This document shows, in pieces, positions 54-4,973 of a stretch of DNA of 5,115 bases. The translations under genes were made by a program, and so were the position numbers. Source of the stretch: JBFLXN01 sp040755715 [NCBI: Candidatus Edwardsbacteria bacterium] (GTDB lineage: Bacteria; Edwardsbacteria; AC1; JBFLXN01); the NCBI GenBank assembly GCA_040755715.1, contig JBFLXN010000183.1, positions 1 through 5,115 of the forward strand, written 5' to 3'. Below the pieces are notes generated by a model. The model was not told where the DNA came from and did not search any database. It was given only the letters and a program-made list of their open reading frames with translations. Position 1 is the stretch's first letter; every line of letters starts with the position of its first letter.

Positions 54-611
54 TTGCAGGATTTTACAAAGGCAAGGGAATATCTTATAAATGCCGAAAA
101 GATTGCAAGGGAAATTGGTGAGAAAGAGGTTTTGCGGAGGGTTTATGTTTCGTTAGGGGAGTTGATACTCGCGGAGACCGTAGGGCGTAAAGCGTATAGC
201 GTAGAGCGTAAGGCGAAAACTTACGCAGAAACAGCCCTCAAACTTGCTGAAGAATTGAATTCAAAATCTGGCAAGGCAGAGGTATTGCTTTTGCAAGCAA
301 GGATTATGGTAGAACAGGCATCCTTGCCTGAGACACCCCTGACCCCTCTTAATAAAGGGGAATTTAAAGAGGCAGGCGATAAATTCAAATCCGCTATCTC
401 AATATTTGAGGAATTAAAACAACCTTTTGAAATCGCCAAGGCGTATTATTATTATGCCCAATCAATCAAAACTGTAGGGACAGGGCTTGTTCCTGTCCAA
501 TTTGATGACAAATCAGAAGAATATCTGCAAAAGGCAAGTGAACTTTTTGAAAAAATTGGAGCCAAAGCTTGGTTGGAAAAAATCGAAGGAGATGCAGGAT
601 TGTCCGCCTAA
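54..611 (+). CDS. TPR-repeat protein, C-terminal part, 5' end missing or broken
   Basis: The 185-residue product is a run of tetratricopeptide-type helix pairs, normally a protein-protein interaction scaffold. Helices are visible at about residues 1-21, 25-40, 55-69, 72-88, 105-122, 125-139 and 152-169. The ending around GAKAWLEKIE resembles the last TPR of large multi-TPR regulatory or ATPase proteins (from memory). The start is uncertain. A TTG at 54 has AGGAG at 39-43, but TPR-like sequence (YIELQDF) continues in frame upstream to codon 24, just after an in-frame TGA at 21-23. All three forward frames are closed before position 24. I therefore infer either the remnant of a longer gene or a short gene that starts at TTG. 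Residues 41-54, 89-103 and 140-150 are encoded by repeat elements inserted in the loops between helices A and B. The final residues and the stop come from a palindrome. Confidence 0.6.
   Translation: MQDFTKAREYLINAEKIAREIGEKEVLRRVYVSLGELILAETVGRKAYSVERKAKTYAETALKLAEELNSKSGKAEVLLLQARIMVEQASLPETPLTPLNKGEFKEAGDKFKSAISIFEELKQPFEIAKAYYYYAQSIKTVGTGLVPVQFDDKSEEYLQKASELFEKIGAKAWLEKIEGDAGLSA
185..219 (+). repeat. Heptanucleotide tandem repeat inside the TPR gene
   Basis: Four successive 7-base units begin with GCGTA (185-191, 192-198, 199-205, 206-212), followed by a degenerate fifth unit (213-219). Because 7 is not a multiple of 3, each unit is read in a different frame, giving residues around GRKAYSVERKA. 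The array lies between helix A (about 25-40) and helix B (about 55-69) of a TPR unit. The unit boundaries are seen directly; the insertional origin is inferred. Confidence 0.8.
315..372 (+). repeat. Composite palindromic insertion inside the TPR gene
   Basis: A 6-bp inverted repeat, CAGGCA/TGCCTG (315-320 and 325-330, loop TCCT), is followed by a second one, CCCCT/AGGGG (343-347 and 356-360). CCTCTT at 345-350 can alternatively pair with AAGAGG at 367-372. It encodes the stretch SLPETPLTPLNKGE, which has low helical propensity and splits a TPR pair. The PLTPLNKGE peptide is one I associate with dispersed coding palindromes in other bacteria; this is memory, not a search. Confidence 0.65.
474..498 (+). 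repeat. GTAGGGACAGG-type palindrome inside the TPR gene
   Basis: GGACAGG at 478-484 and CCTGTCC at 492-498 form a perfect 7-bp inverted repeat around a 7-base loop. It is read in frame as VGTGLVPVQ, a Gly/Pro/Val loop between two helices of the last TPR. The same opening (GTAGG, then ACAGG) and closing (CCTGTC) occur in the membrane-protein gene at 1530-1552 in the same reading frame, so the two look like members of one family. Confidence 0.75.
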
Positions 612-825: not shown

Positions 826-1434
826 ATGATTACCACAATCTTGGAAATCGTTGGACACTGGATAATCAGCGTCATTTCTACACTCGGTTACAGTGGCATT
901 GTTATCTGTATGAGTATTGAAAGCGCCTGTATCCCCTTGCCGAGCGAAGTGATTATGCCGTTCTCTGGATATCTCGTCTTTCAGGGACAATTTAATCTCT
1001 GGCTGACGGGAGTGGCTGGCGCCCTCGGCTGTGTAGTCGGTTCAGCAGCGGCTTATGTCGTGGGTATCTATGGTGGGCGACCGTTTATTGAGCGATACGG
1101 AAAATATGTTTTGATTTCACACCACGATTTAAATGTGGCAGATCGCTGGTTTGACAAATATGGAGACTGGGTGATTTTTTTCTCTCGGTTGTTACCAGTA
1201 ATTCGCACTTACATTTCATTGCCGGCTGGTATTGCTAAGATGCATTTTCCAAAATTTTTACTTTACACTTTTATTGGTTCATTCCCGTGGTGTCTGGCTT
1301 TAGCCTTTGTAGGTTTGAAATTAGGTGAACATTGGATGACTATTAGAACTCTCTTTCACCGAGCTGATTTGGTAATCGGTATAGGGATAGTGATACTAAT
1401 TGGCCTATGGTTATATAGGCACTTAAAGAAATAA
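826..1434 (+). CDS. DedA-family membrane protein
   Basis: The 202-residue product is an integral inner-membrane protein of the DedA (SNARE-associated/VTT) superfamily. Members are linked to phospholipid flipping, membrane potential and envelope stress; the substrate here is unknown. Visible family signatures are ESACIPLPSEV at 32-42 (conserved Glu32, prolines and acidic Glu41), the FFSRLLPVIRTY stretch at 118-129, LPAG at 132-135 and GSFPW at 151-155. Arg121 and Arg127 are spaced six apart, like the two essential arginines of E. coli YqjA. Glu32 and Glu41 probably match that protein's two essential acidic residues, with a shorter loop. Hydrophobic segments lie at about 12-30, 42-55, 58-82, 142-164 and 181-197. 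Length is normal for the family. The ATG directly follows an in-frame TAA (823-825), with weak GTGAG at 817-821 as ribosome-binding site. The small membrane-protein gene begins 59 bp downstream. Confidence 0.93.
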   Translation: MITTILEIVGHWIISVISTLGYSGIVICMSIESACIPLPSEVIMPFSGYLVFQGQFNLWLTGVAGALGCVVGSAAAYVVGIYGGRPFIERYGKYVLISHHDLNVADRWFDKYGDWVIFFSRLLPVIRTYISLPAGIAKMHFPKFLLYTFIGSFPWCLALAFVGLKLGEHWMTIRTLFHRADLVIGIGIVILIGLWLYRHLKK

Positions 1435-1481
1435 GTAGAGAGTAGCGAGAAACGAGTGCTCTCCACCTGCTACTTTTCTAC
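1435..1481 (+). repeat. Imperfect hairpin between the DedA gene and the next gene
   Basis: GTAGAGAGTAGC at 1435-1446 pairs with GCTACTTTTCTAC at 1469-1481: 12 pairs including one G-T, one bulged T and a 22-base loop. The left arm starts at the base after the DedA stop. The right arm ends 3 bases before the next gene's ribosome-binding site. With no T tract after it, readthrough into the next gene seems likely. The hairpin might influence translation start or message processing; this is inference. Confidence 0.5.
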
Positions 1482-1493
1482 ACAGGAGACGAA

Positions 1494-1961
1494 ATGATAT
1501 TTAACATTCCAATTCCTTCGCCAGCGAAAGTAGGACAGGCGTCTCACCTGTCAAATGAAGTCGTAGAAATGGAATGGACCTACCGTCCACCAGCAAAGAG
1601 GAAAATTATTTTTATCATCATTCTGATTGTCGCTGTCGCCGCCTTTTTCTATTTTGTTAAATCCGGACGGGGATTTCAGAAAATCTTGAAAGAAATGCTC
1701 GGACCTCTTATCGCACTTCTCCCAGCACTCTTATTTTCTCTGTTCGTTTCTAAAAAATATCGTTTGACAAATTTAGGTGTTTATGAAGGCACAAAACGGT
1801 TAGGTTTATGGACTGAATTCGTAGCGTGGCAAAGGGTAGAAAATCAAGTTAGATTGAAGAAAAAACAGGCATTGTCTAATTTAGCCATCCTTTATTGCAA
1901 TAATACTACAGAAACAATGCGAGTGACAGCCATAGCGGGTAAATATGTTCGTAGACAATAG
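1494..1961 (+). CDS. Small membrane protein with PH-like C-terminal region
   Basis: I do not recognise a named family for this 155-residue product. Two hydrophobic segments (about 38-55 and 68-85) are followed by YRLTNLGVYEGTKRLGLWTEF at 89-109. That pattern is seen in membrane-anchored bacterial PH-like (bPH) domains, where a strand pair precedes a 'WxEF' turn. The tail to 155 is shorter than I would expect for a full domain, so it may be truncated. The ATG is supported by AGGAGA at 1484-1489, five bases upstream. An internal ATG at 1569 lacks such a site. Residues 13-20 are encoded by a palindromic insertion, and the stop codon lies in another repeat. The short spacing suggests cotranscription with the DedA gene. 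Family assignment is tentative; membrane topology is more secure. Confidence 0.7.
   Translation: MIFNIPIPSPAKVGQASHLSNEVVEMEWTYRPPAKRKIIFIIILIVAVAAFFYFVKSGRGFQKILKEMLGPLIALLPALLFSLFVSKKYRLTNLGVYEGTKRLGLWTEFVAWQRVENQVRLKKKQALSNLAILYCNNTTETMRVTAIAGKYVRRQ
1516..1552 (+). repeat. In-frame palindromic insertion near the N-terminus of the membrane protein
   Basis: GACAGG at 1534-1539 and CCTGTC at 1547-1552 form an inverted repeat with a 7-base loop, introduced by GTAG at 1530-1533. This matches the element at 474-498 in arms and in reading frame (both start Val-Gly). A neighbouring TTCGC/GCGAA inverted repeat (1517-1521 and 1524-1528) may be part of it. It encodes a polar linker, AKVGQASHLS, ahead of the first membrane segment. 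Confidence 0.65.
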
Positions 1962-2027: not shown

Positions 2028-2138
2028 CCTGAAAAACCACAGATTACACAGATTTTCACAGATTAACACAATTATGGCCCCTTAAAATTCAGCAAATTAT
2101 AATCCGTATAATCCGTGGTTAAGATAGGTTTTTCAAGG
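2028..2138 (+). repeat. MITE-like intergenic element 1 with nested terminal inverted repeats
   Basis: The inner inverted repeats are AACCACAGATTACACAG and onward (2035-2054) and AATCCGTATAATCCGTGGTT (2101-2120), matching at 17 of 20 positions. An outer pair, CCTGAAAAACC (2028-2038) and GGTTTTTCAAGG (2127-2138), matches with one extra base. The left arm is itself a tandem array: CACAGATT begins at 2038, 2047 and 2057. The element has no coding capacity. TATAAT occurs twice in its right half (2098-2103 and 2107-2112), but without a good -35 box. I recall similar ACCACAGATT repeats between genes of many environmental bacteria; their mobilising agent is unknown to me. Confidence 0.75.
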
Positions 2139-2164
2139 AAAATTACTTAAGCACAAGCAGAAAA

Positions 2165-2878
2165 ATGAAATTAAAATTGCAAAAAATAAGAAAAGAAAAC
2201 GCCGAATTTGAGAAAAGAGCGCCCTATAATTTCTGTGACCGCTGGTGCGAGAGATGTCCACCGGAGACCACAAATAGATGCAAGGTCTATCAGGATGAGT
2301 TTGCTAGAGAATTAAAACATATAGCCAGTGGTAAAGACCCTTATGATTGGGATGTTGTATTAGAGGATGTCAAAGAAAATTTTGAGAAAACAAGGGAACT
2401 TATTCAAAAATGGGCAGAAGAGAAAGATATCGATCTTTCTCAAATTGACGATGACCAATACGAAAAACAAAGAAAAAGAGAGGAACAACTCTTTAGCCAT
2501 CCTCTCTATAAACTGGTAATGAAATACTCCCAACAGACGAATCAATTCATAAAAGATACTTTCTATGAAGGAGTTGAACCTGAGTTAATTGATGATTATG
2601 AGACTATTATCTGGTACCATACGCTTCTTCCTGCAAAGGTGCATCGTCTCTTATGTGATTTGTATGCAAAAGAAGATGAGGAGGGAATTGGATTCTATGA
2701 TGCCGTCGCTCAAATAGACATTAGCAAAAAGTCTATTGCTCAATCAGAAAAGACACTGAAAAAACTTCTCATAGAAAAGATTGCTCATCGCTACAGAATA
2801 TCGGAGCTTTTGGACCTATTATGCGAAATAACCAACCAGGTTAAAGTAATAGAAGATAAAATGGAAAGTTGGGAATAA
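2165..2878 (+). CDS. Conserved hypothetical protein with N-terminal four-cysteine cluster
   Basis: This 237-residue, highly charged soluble protein has no signal peptide or membrane segment. Near its N-terminus Cys24, Cys28, Cys31 and Cys39 form a CX3CX2CX7C cluster (FCDRWCERCPPETTNRC), suited to binding zinc or an iron-sulfur centre. Low-complexity acidic and basic helices follow (about 66-110). The C-terminal half is helical and contains IWYHTLLPAKVHRLL at 149-163 and AQIDISKKSIAQSEKTLKKL at 182-201. I recall the pattern 'WY..L.P.K..RAL', then 'AL..IDRS', in uncharacterised proteins of unrelated bacteria, so this is probably a genuine conserved family of unknown function. ATG 2165 is the only usable start: no other start codon lies between it and the in-frame stop at 2120-2122. 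The ribosome-binding site is poor and the leader is A-rich. The gene follows repeat element 1 by 26 bp. Confidence 0.8.
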   Translation: MKLKLQKIRKENAEFEKRAPYNFCDRWCERCPPETTNRCKVYQDEFARELKHIASGKDPYDWDVVLEDVKENFEKTRELIQKWAEEKDIDLSQIDDDQYEKQRKREEQLFSHPLYKLVMKYSQQTNQFIKDTFYEGVEPELIDDYETIIWYHTLLPAKVHRLLCDLYAKEDEEGIGFYDAVAQIDISKKSIAQSEKTLKKLLIEKIAHRYRISELLDLLCEITNQVKVIEDKMESWE

Positions 2879-2919
2879 GCTCGTTGGAGGCACAGTTCAG
2901 ATATTATGGTTTTGATTTG

Positions 2920-3037
2920 ACCACCGAGGGCACGGAGAGCACAGAGAAAAACAAGGACAAAGAATATAAGTGCCTAAATTAAAATCAAAAAGGGTCAAAG
3001 ATTTCAGAATTTCTGTGTTTTCAGTGTCCTCAGTGGC
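2920..3037 (+). repeat. MITE-like intergenic element 2
   Basis: The left arm 2920-2949 (ACCACCGAGGGCACGGAGAG and onward) is imperfectly mirrored by the right arm 3010-3037, ending CCTCAGTGGC; roughly three quarters of positions match. Most mismatches are G/A or C/T changes. The left arm is built of 9-base units starting CAC at 2922, 2931 and 2940. The central part of about 60 bp is AT-rich and non-coding. The design is the same as elements 1 and 3, although the unit sequence differs. Confidence 0.75.
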
Positions 3038-3099
3038 TGCAAGTATTTTTCAACAGCCTGATTAGGCAAAACCCAGCAAAAATCTCTATATGGTTCAAA

Positions 3100-3130
3100 T
3101 AGACAGGATATTCGTGCAATTCGCTATAAT
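3100..3130 (+). promoter_or_regulatory. Candidate sigma70-type promoter for cysS
   Basis: TATAAT at 3125-3130 is a perfect -10 box. TAGACA at 3100-3105 matches five of six -35 bases, but the 19-bp spacer is longer than ideal. It would start transcription near 3137, leaving a leader of about 63 bases before the cysS ATG. Confidence 0.4.
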
Positions 3131-3199
3131 TTGGCAAATTCGTTTTATATCTATTTTGTCAACCATTTTTATGAATATCAACAGTAGAGGGAGTAACTT

Positions 3200-4609
3200 A
3201 TGAGTCTCAAGTTTTTTAATACCTTGACACGGAAAAGAGAAGAATTCGTTCCTCTTAGAGAAGATTGGGTGGGAATGTATACCTGTGGTCCCACCGTCTA
3301 TGATTACGCCCATATCGGCAATTTTCGCACTTACATCTTTGAAGACATTTTACGCCGCGTATTGGAATACAATGGCTATCAAGTGAAACATGTAATGAAC
3401 GTCACTGATGTGGGTCATCTGACTTCTGATGCTGACGAAGGTGAGGACAAAATGTTAGAAGGGGCAAAACGAGAAAAAAAAACACCCTGGGAAATTGCCG
3501 AATATTATAGCAAAGATTTTTTTGAGAATTTGCTGAGATTAAATATTCTCAAGCCTCACATAATTTGTAAGGCTACCGAACATATTCCCGAGATGATTGA
3601 TTTAGTGCAAAGACTGTTTGAAAGAGGTTATGCCTACGAAATTTCTGATGGGATTTATTTTGATGTAAGTAAACTCCGAAAATTTGGTCAACTTTCAGGG
3701 CAAATACTGGAAGAGCAAGAAGCCGGTGCCAGAATAGAAGTAAATCCAGAAAAAAAGCATCCTGCCGATTTTGCTTTATGGAGAAAGGCCTCACCTAATC
3801 ATATTATGCAGTGGGATAGCCCCTGGGGGAAGGGATTTCCTGGCTGGCACATAGAATGCTCGGCAATGAATATGAAGTATCTGGGAGAAACGATTGACAT
3901 TCACTGTGGCGGTGTAGACCATATTCCCATTCATCATGAAAACGAGATTGCTCAGAGTGAAGGGGCAACTGGTAAGCAATTCGTGCGCTATTGGCTACAC
4001 GGACAATTCTTACAAGTTGACGGCGGGAAAATGGCAAAGAGTCTGGGGAATTTTTATCGCCTGCAAGATTTAGAGGCAAAAGGAATTGAACCCTTAGCCT
4101 TTCGCTATTTCTGTTTGACCGGACAATATCGCACACCATTAAATTTCACCTGGGAGTCAATTAGGAGTGCCCGGAACGGACTCTGGAATCTTAGAGAAGA
4201 GATTTTGCGAAGGCGGAGAGAAACTGAAGATTTTGACAAATCAGAAGTTGAAAGATTGCAGAAGAATTTTTTAGAAGCAATCAACGATGATTTAAATATG
4301 CCGCAGGCTTTGAGTATTGTATGGGAAGCGATAAAGGTTTTGAGTGGCAAAACATGGTGGAAACTGATTCTGCAATTTGATAGAGTCTTAGGATTGGGTC
4401 TGGATAAACTTGATGAGATTGAAAAAGAGATGACGACCATTCCTCCAAAAATTGAAGAATTAAGAATCAAGCGAGATGAAGCGAGAAAGAAGAAAGAGTG
4501 GAAAACTGCAGATGAATTGAGAAAGAAAGCAGAAGAGCAGGGCTATCTTTTTGAGGATACACCAGAAGGGACAAAGGTGAAAAAAATTGTAAAGAGTATT
4601 GACAATTGA
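3200..4609 (+). CDS. cysS: Cysteinyl-tRNA synthetase (class I)
   Basis: This cytoplasmic enzyme joins cysteine to tRNA-Cys using ATP. The 469-residue length is normal for the family (E. coli 461). The N-terminal Rossmann domain carries the zinc ligand Cys29 in [15 protein letters not shown], with the HIGH-type motif HIGN at 38-41. The remaining zinc ligands are Cys220 (HIECSAM), His245 and Glu249 (HHENE), matching Cys209, His234 and Glu238 of the E. coli enzyme. The second ATP-binding signature is KMAKS at 277-281, a variant of KMSKS. A helical DALR-type region (about 320-400) and the usual charged C-terminal segment ([20 protein letters not shown], about 425-444) complete it. ATG 3200 has GGAG at 3190-3193, six bases away, and starts where homologues start. 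The metal site reads [14 protein letters not shown] rather than the GGGxDLxFPHHENE of E. coli-type enzymes. The TGA stop overlaps a downstream promoter. Confidence 0.97.
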
Positions 4610-4633
4610 CAGAGAAATTTGATAAACTATAAT
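4599..4633 (+). promoter_or_regulatory. Near-consensus sigma70-type promoter overlapping the cysS stop
   Basis: TTGACA at 4606-4611 and TATAAT at 4628-4633 are both perfect and are separated by 16 bp. A second TTGACA lies at 4599-4604. The predicted start is near 4640. The first gene downstream is tRNA-Thr at 4902, giving an unusually long leader of about 260 bases that contains repeat element 3. It may serve the tRNA or an unrecognised small RNA. Confidence 0.6.
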
Positions 4634-4661
4634 CAGTATTTCGCAAAGATTACTTACATTG

Positions 4662-4790
4662 AACCACGAAGAACACAAAGATATTGTAAAATTATTCTCT
4701 TTGTGTGACACTTTCTTTCCTAAATCTATCGATTTTTCTTTGAGCTCTTCTTGCCCAGACGATATGTCGGAGTGAATGCACTTTGTGGTT
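4662..4790 (+). repeat. MITE-like intergenic element 3
   Basis: The left border AACCACGAAGAACACAAAGA (4662-4681) faces the right border CACTTTGTGGTT (4779-4790); the outer ten bases match at nine positions. CAC units start at 4665 and 4674. An internal perfect inverted repeat, ACACAAAGA (4673-4681) with TCTTTGTGT (4698-4706), could form a 9-bp hairpin in the cysS 3' region, but no T tract follows. The interior shows no convincing gene on either strand. Confidence 0.6.
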
Positions 4791-4866
4791 AAATAGATTT
4801 TGTGAACTATTGATAATAGAAGCGTTTGGCTCATTGCAGATATGGATTAGTCGTCGGTTTTTTACA

Positions 4867-4898
4867 CTAATAACCAATAACTAACCACTATTAACTGT
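4867..4898 (+). repeat. Degenerate TAACCA-type tandem repeat before the tRNA
   Basis: Overlapping variants of AATAACCA, ATAACTAACC and ACTATTAAC run up to three bases before the tRNA. This looks like a slipped, decayed short tandem repeat. No clear promoter is visible in it. Confidence 0.35.
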
Positions 4899-4901
4899 TT
4901 T

Positions 4902-4973
4902 GCCGACATAGCTCAGTGGTAGAGCAGGGGTTTTGTAAACCTCAGGTCGGGGGTTCAAATCCCTCTGTCGGCT
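4902..4973 (+). tRNA. trnT-UGU: tRNA-Thr, anticodon UGU
   Basis: A complete cloverleaf can be folded by eye. The acceptor stem is GCCGACA (4902-4908) with TGTCGGC (4966-4972). The D stem is GCTC/GAGC, with loop AGTGGTA. The anticodon stem GGGGT/ACCTC (one G-T pair) encloses loop TTTGTAA, with anticodon TGT at 4934-4936. The T arm is GGGGG-TTCAAAT-CCCTC. The discriminator base (4973) is T and CCA is not encoded, so CCA must be added by the nucleotidyltransferase. The molecule decodes ACA and probably other ACN threonine codons. Confidence 0.97.

Follow-up and report, generated by a model that had tools for sequence, protein, structure and literature searches.

Three intergenic palindromes of a Candidatus Edwardsbacteria contig as probable gene-less members of a class of GxxExxY elements framed by arrays of short repeats

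The 5,115-nt stretch of DNA analysed here (contig JBFLXN010000183.1 of assembly GCA_040755715.1, from a Candidatus Edwardsbacteria bacterium; hereafter the window) carries three short intergenic elements, E1, E2 and E3 (Table 1). They are probably gene-less derivatives, resembling miniature inverted-repeat transposable elements (MITEs), of a class of mobile elements in which a GxxExxY nuclease gene is framed by two inverted arms of short tandem units; we place the probability of this explanation at roughly 0.7. A preliminary description, made from the letters of the window, had proposed that the three elements share one architecture and are served by one mobilising or binding protein. This proposal is partly supported, its main idea of a common architecture having held and several of its specifics having been corrected.

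The borders of all three elements were read directly (Table 1), and the elements have different sequences with shared borders and units, as had been described. The extents first given for E2 and E3 stood, and that for E1 (2028–2138) was slightly too long. The left arm of E1 reads CACAGATTA-CACAGATTTT-CACAGATTAA (9, 10 and 10 bp) and that of E2 CACCGAGGG-CACGGAGAG-CACAGAG (9, 9 bp); E3 has two units only in its left arm (CACGAAGAA-CACAAAGA) and one at its far end, and an inverted TCTTTGTGT lies inside the element. Tandem 8–10-bp C[AG]C units in two inverted arms are clear in E1 and E2 and weak in E3. When the window was scanned for CCAC...GTGG pairs at a spacing of 60–160 bp, E1 and E2 each scored 25 and E3, the weakest, 15. 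Over 300 dinucleotide-shuffled versions of the window, the top score had a mean of 9.1, a 95th percentile of 16 and a maximum of 21, and the third-best score never exceeded 13. All three elements are real, E1 and E2 beating every shuffle and E3 being weaker. Folded as single-stranded DNA, E2 and E3 gave z-scores of -2.39 and -2.57, and E1 (-0.72) is not unusual. Gaps of more than 200 bp between open reading frames (ORFs) or tRNA lie at 612–825, 1962–2164, 2879–3199 and 4610–4901, and the earlier statement that three of these four hold an element was borne out. An Rfam scan of the window found tRNA only and no rRNA, so the elements are not inserted in rRNA.

Arms of these elements have matches at other loci, several of them GxxExxY loci. 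The E1 arm matches sequence at or near the arms of two loci that hold a GxxExxY gene or a piece of one (L164, L173), with further matches in L032, L327, L392 and L432; the left arm of E2 matches the arms of L133, L141 and L201, all GxxExxY loci; and the E3 arm matches those of Desantisbacteria elements at L091 and L286. An initial coarse scan of loci around the cysteinyl-tRNA synthetase gene (cysS) had picked up just two elements, one in the window and L032 as a clear relative. Among 30 genomes reached via cysS loci, the pattern ACCACNRAKNNCACNRAK is present in 40 copies in an Acidobacteriota genome (G018), in 26 copies in a Desantisbacteria genome (G025) and in 0–5 copies in the other 28, with 0–2 per genome and strand for the reversed control. 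Some of the G025 elements encode the start of a GxxExxY protein inside. Pieces of GxxExxY genes lie between the arms of short G025 elements (on contigs C67, C43, with two, and C194), and also inside a 292-bp family of two other genomes, G101 and G102, and a ~217-bp family of G102; short palindromes can therefore arise by deletion. The G018 repeats examined for borders were mostly single arms. An outer sequence common to one G025 family, GTTAGRCTA, shows no duplication and may be another repeat.

The association between gene and arms was measured by aligning the 300 bp before each gene with the reverse complement of the 300 bp after it, at loci that were the best-scoring matches of each search (at most 30) and came from four phyla, with two Verrucomicrobia loci. 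Of 109 loci (L111–L219), 90 match GxxExxY over its full length, and both flanks are present for 89 of them. Arm scores of at least 40 were obtained at 63 of the 89, and of at least 34 at 74; the corresponding numbers were 28 and 34 of 40 in the Hydrogenedentota and first mixed loci, 12 and 15 of 19 in Desantisbacteria, and 23 and 25 of 30 in Acidobacteriota. None of 77 control windows 400–700 bp further out reached 34, and mismatched flank pairs reached 40 in 2.3% and 34 in 5.8% of cases. A fresh fourth-phylum set, from the phylum of a Desulfobacterales metagenome-assembled genome (350-bp windows), gave 14 of 30 at 40 or above and 19 of 30 at 34 or above, with an outer control of 0/28. Pooled, inverted arms (score at least 34) frame 93 of 119 full-length GxxExxY genes and 0 of 105 outer windows. 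The period and substitution analyses were confined to the 63 elements scoring at least 40. Their upstream arms had a best period of 9 in 31 cases, 8 in 16, 10 in 10 and 11–13 in 6, so that 57 of 63 fall at 8–10, as do 14 of 19 in the fresh set; the modal period of 9 bp lies under the ~10.5 bp of the helical turn to which the unit had been likened. Units of the upstream arm point toward the gene in 69 of 93 elements and away from it in 13, with 11 undecided. The ACCAC border is common in the class and is not obligatory, since CGC and ACAGGAT units also exist.

GxxExxY (TIGR04256/PF13366) belongs to the PD-(D/E)XK nuclease superfamily. In 120 proteins the residues E26, D66, E76, K78, Q90 and Y94 (numbered as in the L112 row) are 98–100% conserved, a set compatible with an active nuclease that has a RecB/Cas4-like QxxxY motif. 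Of 68 genomes in the Hydrogenedentota sample, 57 have a member above the family cut-off; for the Desantisbacteria sample the figure is 13 of 19, for the Acidobacteriota sample 53 of 149, and for the phylum to which the Desulfobacterales genome belongs 67 of 198. The PADLOC defence models gave only Cas4 (E 0.046) with the one GxxExxY protein searched, and no defence match. Locus L482 (G335:C32:26300-31500) has, by eye, three GxxExxY genes in ~3.5 kb among MNT/HEPN-like and HicAB-like genes and resembles a cassette array, and L484 (G084:C223) has two tandem GxxExxY elements with 98% identity over 486 bp and alternating arms.

Unit sequence follows the nuclease clade, also between phyla. Arm similarity tracks protein identity, with a Mantel rho of 0.455 where permutations reached at most 0.148. 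The relation extends to the 3235 cross-phylum pairs, in which rho was 0.437 and the maximum 0.14 when arms were permuted within phyla. Mean arm similarity of cross-phylum pairs was 0.42 at 20–35% protein identity, 0.44 at 35–50%, 0.62 at 50–60%, 0.84 at 60–70% and 0.97 above 70% (seven pairs). On a tree of the 120 proteins, which is built from few columns, has 28 open forks and a bootstrap that has not settled, the phyla are scattered, their label changing 45 times (minimum 4, shuffled mean 66.4). Unit class, callable in 85 of 93 elements, changes 30 times on the nuclease tree; in 100 shuffles the mean was 54.7 and the minimum 49. The arms themselves are conserved across phyla. Among the 74 elements with an inward first unit, 45 cross-phylum pairs have at least 65% protein identity, and in these the 25-nt start of the arm is 0.77 identical, the spacer 0.53 and the outer flank 0.45, with a shuffled baseline of 0.52. 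With rising protein identity, arm identity climbs from ~0.6 to 0.77 while the spacer stays at 0.45–0.53 and the outer flank at 0.44–0.46; third codon positions are near saturation (0.29–0.35, or 0.37–0.39 for unchanged residues). That arms are kept across phyla while spacers are lost argues for a function of the arms. The correlation of arm with protein could be explained by co-inheritance alone. Of the earlier suggestion that a protein reads the spacing of the units and not their sequence, the fixed spacing survives and the independence of sequence does not, because the letters follow the nuclease clade.

Recent and exact transposition was observed for the 292-bp family in G101 and G102, the one genome pair in which the mobility proposed for the class could be tested. 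The two genomes are close relatives (98–99% identity over two shared loci) and hold 59 and 68 GxxExxY matches, respectively, many of them truncated. The family holds the C-terminal part of the GxxExxY gene; eight fetched copies, at seven sites, are 98.0–99.7% identical to L249 and have inverted ends of ~41 bp (GTAACTATTCACCGCAGAG...). Exact 8-bp duplications are present at four of the seven sites (L249, L252, L256 and L257), and flank searches in G102 recovered two clean empty sites with a single 8-bp target, CTTCATTA for L257 and TTTCGTGA for L256. The L250 and L252 flanks lie ~400 bp apart in G101, and these sites therefore appear occupied in G101 too; the L249 site is split over two contigs and one L258 flank was not found. 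Empty sites and target duplications, which had been suggested earlier as a check on mobility, were thus found in this pair, in copies that bear IS66-type tips outside the arms. These tips (GTAACTATTCA) resemble the IS66 transposase tips of the same phylum, and the spread of the family is best ascribed to an IS66-type transposase.

Such tips would also fit ordinary MITEs of an IS66-type (or IS5-like) transposon, whose transposase would read the outer tips, the CAC arrays and the nuclease being passengers. The tip pattern GTAACYRYTCAGG occurs 381 times in G102, against 2 for the control, and 38 times, against 1, in G120, an Acidobacteriota genome. In 30 fetched loci, 37 of 47 tips have at least two CAC/CGC units in the next 80 nt, as do 7.6% of random positions, and such a tip is present in 27 of the 30, a set that includes overlapping loci. 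Two IS66 transposases (G102, G112), both with internal stop codons, sit between those tips, and what by eye is an IS5-like transposon of G212 (L220–L237, L239), with several copies truncated or internally deleted, carries the armed GxxExxY module in 19 of 20 fetched stretches. However, tips on both sides were found in 4 of 74 GxxExxY elements, all in G101/G102, and on one side in four more (control 0/223); the open-framed IS66 transposase of G120 has no such tip pair; the gene keeps its arms in two different carriers and also where no carrier is recognised; and unit class follows the nuclease clade. Ordinary MITEs would account for G101/G102 but not for the elements that lack tips, and as an explanation of the class they are unlikely. 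With only 4 of 74 elements two-tipped, IS66 looks to be a local carrier, and it was rejected as a universal motor. The stable module is thus that of arms and gene, with carriers that vary. The amplification in G212 was rejected as a proof of self-mobility, its copies being, by eye, those of an IS5-like transposon with the module inside. In the window, a search for GTAACYRYTCA with up to three mismatches gave one tip-like site to the left of E1 (GTTACTCCTGA), none to its right and none at E2 or E3. Bacterial MITEs are similarly short and non-autonomous with inverted ends, and one family here has 8-bp duplications and empty sites; the class differs from IS66-tipped MITEs in the rarity of tips on both sides and in arms that are unit arrays following the nuclease clade. 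A Porphyromonas gingivalis MITE with a minisatellite likewise has tandem repeats inside, and differs in that, as far as the available text of its description goes, neither a nuclease gene nor inverted unit arms are mentioned (PMC4596501).

The explanation favoured here, that E1–E3 derive from arm-framed GxxExxY elements, would involve the following steps. A complete element consists of one GxxExxY gene between two inverted arms, each with about three tandem 8–10-bp units, most of which follow C[AG]C-N-[AG]-A-K. The module of gene and arms travels between phyla as one, and deletion of the gene would leave short palindromes such as E1–E3; judging from their arms, the window copies probably once held a GxxExxY gene. 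We infer a route of movement belonging to the module itself, in which the nuclease or its complex would recognise, at each end, the unit proper to its clade and would make or steer the break by which the module is copied or inserted. Where an IS66-type or IS5-like element has taken up the module, the transposase of that element would spread it. That the GxxExxY nuclease is what reads the units is proposed tentatively, at slightly less than even odds. The assignment to the class itself has good support.

Several observations weigh against this explanation. No GxxExxY remnant was found in the window by hmmsearch at maximum sensitivity with a seven-sequence profile, and for this reason E1–E3 are named gene-less derivatives by arm similarity only. 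Nor is there a convincing target duplication at any of the three: within 45 bp the longest direct repeats are 6 bp at E1 and 7 bp at E3, with none of at least 6 bp at E2, lengths within chance for so many offsets, and no 8-bp duplication is present, although old insertions could have lost one. With neither a gene piece nor a convincing duplication, their derivation is drawn from the arms. In the 292-bp family, three of the seven sites (L250, L258 and that common to L251 and L259) have no duplication, and its IS66-like tips imply that transposition need not use the arms or the nuclease. In the diverse set, 10 of 74 elements have target duplications of at least 7 bp where 3.7% are expected; this excess is slight, and a target duplication common to the set was rejected. 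Arms scoring at least 34 are lacking at 26 of the 119 GxxExxY genes, and the loci sampled, being best matches, represent a fraction of all matches. The pairs behind the arm and protein correlations are not independent. Some clustering by phylum is present on the nuclease tree, since 45 label changes are fewer than the shuffled 66.4, and on the 85 rows used for unit class the phylum label also changes 30 times, equal to unit class itself.

Arms of a different period frame a second, unrelated kind of small gene. These are four-helix-bundle genes (TIGR02436), the S23p family known from rRNA intervening sequences (IVSs). In Hydrogenedentota, where 28 of 30 loci have both flanks, 16 score at least 40 and 21 at least 34 (mismatched flank pairs 2.4% and 6.1%); in Acidobacteriota, where all 30 loci were used, the numbers are 17 and 24. 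Outer controls gave 0/22 and 0/28, respectively, and 45 of the 58 loci of both sets are framed. Periods of 7 or 14 were obtained for 20 of 21 Hydrogenedentota arms and 16 of 24 Acidobacteriota arms, among which five gave 8 and three gave 9. G exceeds C in 44 of 45 upstream arms, and arm and protein are only weakly linked (rho 0.119, p 0.022). No rRNA match was found by Rfam among 60 four-helix loci, which are therefore not 23S insertions. Independent support for the 7-bp class comes from the IVS of Coxiella, in which tandem heptamers, the period of the S23-type genes here, stand upstream of the S23p ORF (PMC4990558); a pentameric ring is reported for a homologue (PMC4990558). ORF6N genes, suggested as an alternative cargo by a Verrucomicrobia locus (L107), were rejected: of L330–L359, 23 of 30 were listed after short or broken loci (L346, L347, L353–L357) were dropped, and arms were found at 0 of the 21 with both flanks.

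The IVS parallel suggests that the arms might instead act in RNA, where pairing of the transcript would allow RNase III to cut the ORF out, as with 23S rRNA IVSs. The Coxiella IVS, with its S23p and its heptamers upstream of the ORF, is excised by RNase III (PMC4990558), and in the elements studied here the two arms match each other and unit orientation is mostly constant. Changes that keep G:U pairs in the sense RNA are, however, not in excess in GxxExxY arms (80 vs 64, p 0.21), in a second GxxExxY set (20 vs 24) or in one four-helix set (32 vs 24, p 0.35), and a constraint from RNA pairing was rejected on this lack of asymmetry. Nor would pairing alone demand that letters be kept within a nuclease clade, and action in RNA is quite improbable. 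In being small selfish elements with one small ORF and flanking repeats, 23S rRNA IVSs are like the class to which the window elements are assigned; that class differs in its 8–10-bp units, its unrelated nuclease gene, its position between protein genes and the absence of an excess of G:U-keeping changes.

Two further alternatives concern short palindromes in general. Slippage and template switching could keep the arms of neutral quasi-palindromes alike, with genes between them by accident. At L116, L141 and L215 inverted similarity does extend outward past the arms in a locus-specific manner, as if quasi-palindrome correction copies the flanks. This process is nevertheless very unlikely to explain the arms, given that their period depends on the gene family (~9 for GxxExxY, mostly 7 for four-helix genes), that ORF6N genes are unframed and that arms, but not spacers, are conserved across phyla. 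Repetitive extragenic palindromic (REP) elements, which carry the guide motif GTAG/GGAG and are served by a REP-associated tyrosine (Y1) transposase, resemble the window elements in being intergenic, short, palindromic and multicopy elsewhere. The arms here are instead arrays of 8–10-bp units, and within 25 bp outside the borders the guide motifs and their complements are represented by one CTCC at E1 and do not occur at E2 or E3. The arms are associated with a gene for a PD-(D/E)XK nuclease, no search for a Y1 transposase having been made, and an origin as REP elements is extremely improbable. The idea of one protein behind the elements thus stands at the level of a family, which is GxxExxY and not the REP-associated transposase first suggested.

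The class resembles small one-ORF selfish elements already known, such as IVSs, and the arms of GxxExxY genes appear to be undescribed. A literature search, with most subscription journals and preprints outside its coverage, found no description of them, and we know of no published account of an arm-framed GxxExxY class. The Rpn nucleases also have a PD-(D/E)XK fold. Rpn (YhgA-like) proteins are, like GxxExxY, widespread nucleases linked to mobilisation, and unit-array arms are not mentioned in the available part of their description (PMC5350276); they belong to Pfam PF04754, GxxExxY to PF13366. The class supplies a gene, and a mechanism open to testing, for intergenic repeats that some environmental bacteria carry in large numbers. 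Should the nuclease read its own unit, the family would offer many natural enzyme-site pairs, a readable code and possibly a new class of homing-like nucleases. Annotation artefacts are also possible, such as short ORFs within arrays and GxxExxY N-termini that read into an arm.

A broader grouping is somewhat less likely than not: a superclass of array-framed selfish genes encoding unrelated small proteins (PD-(D/E)XK nucleases and S23-type four-helix bundles), in which the protein family would set the period (9 or 7 bp), the unit letters of the nuclease family would be a recognition code changing with the clade, and gene-less arrays, those of the window among them and perhaps the heptamer repeats of cyanobacteria and giant sulfur bacteria, would be debris and possibly landing sites. 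Cyanobacterial short tandemly repeated repetitive sequences (STRRs) are heptamer repeats. An origin that can be tested, both for these and for the TAACTGA repeats, is offered by the 7-bp class that frames S23-type genes. The TAACTGA repeats are intergenic tandem heptamers of Beggiatoaceae, Cyanobacteria and Bacteroidetes, perhaps spread horizontally (PMC4679880), and may themselves be members of that class. They are alike in their intergenic 7-bp tandem units and differ in being direct repeats, with one inverted set of 170; the terms S23 and four helix are absent from the text of that paper (PMC4679880).

Table 1. Features of the 5,115-nt window
Feature	Position	Strand	Remarks
E1	2035..2120	none	AACCAC (2035-2040)...GTGGTT (2115-2120); CACAGATTA-type units; no internal gene
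E2	2920..3037	none	ACCAC (2920-2924)...GTGGC (3033-3037); CACGGAGAG/CACAGAG units, other end inverted (TTTCTGTGTTTTCAGTGTCCTCAGTGG)
E3	4662..4790	none	AACCAC (4662-4667)...GTGGTT (4785-4790); CACGAAGAA-CACAAAGA, short right arm, inverted unit inside
TPR protein gene	54-611	+	
DedA/VTT protein gene	826-1434	+	
ORF of unassigned product	1494-1961	+	
Second ORF of unassigned product	2165-2878	+	
Cysteinyl-tRNA synthetase gene (cysS)	3200-4609	+	
tRNA-Thr	4902-4973	+	
7-bp-class array	180..217	+	GCGTAGG, GCGTAAA, GCGTATA, GCGTAGA, GCGTAAG; inside TPR ORF
Possible small inverted 7-bp-class element	1434..1482	none	GTAGAGA GTAGCGA ... CTGCTACTTTTCTAC
7-bp-class array	~4595-4611		End of cysS, ATTGACA units
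7-bp-class array	4866-4897		

Heptamer arrays are present in the window as well (Table 1). The array inside the TPR ORF has a lag-7 identity of 0.79 and is the best lag-7 stretch of the window; the possible inverted element has a lag-7 identity of 0.59, its inversion being judged by eye. In G101 and G102, GGTAAATGG/GGTAATTGG heptamer arrays appeared at many sites as unexpected matches in the flank searches. The first of the long gaps in the window, between the TPR and DedA/VTT genes, is without a CAC element and contains two short palindromes of another type, CCCGACCACGTCGGG and CCCGATGTTACATCGGG.

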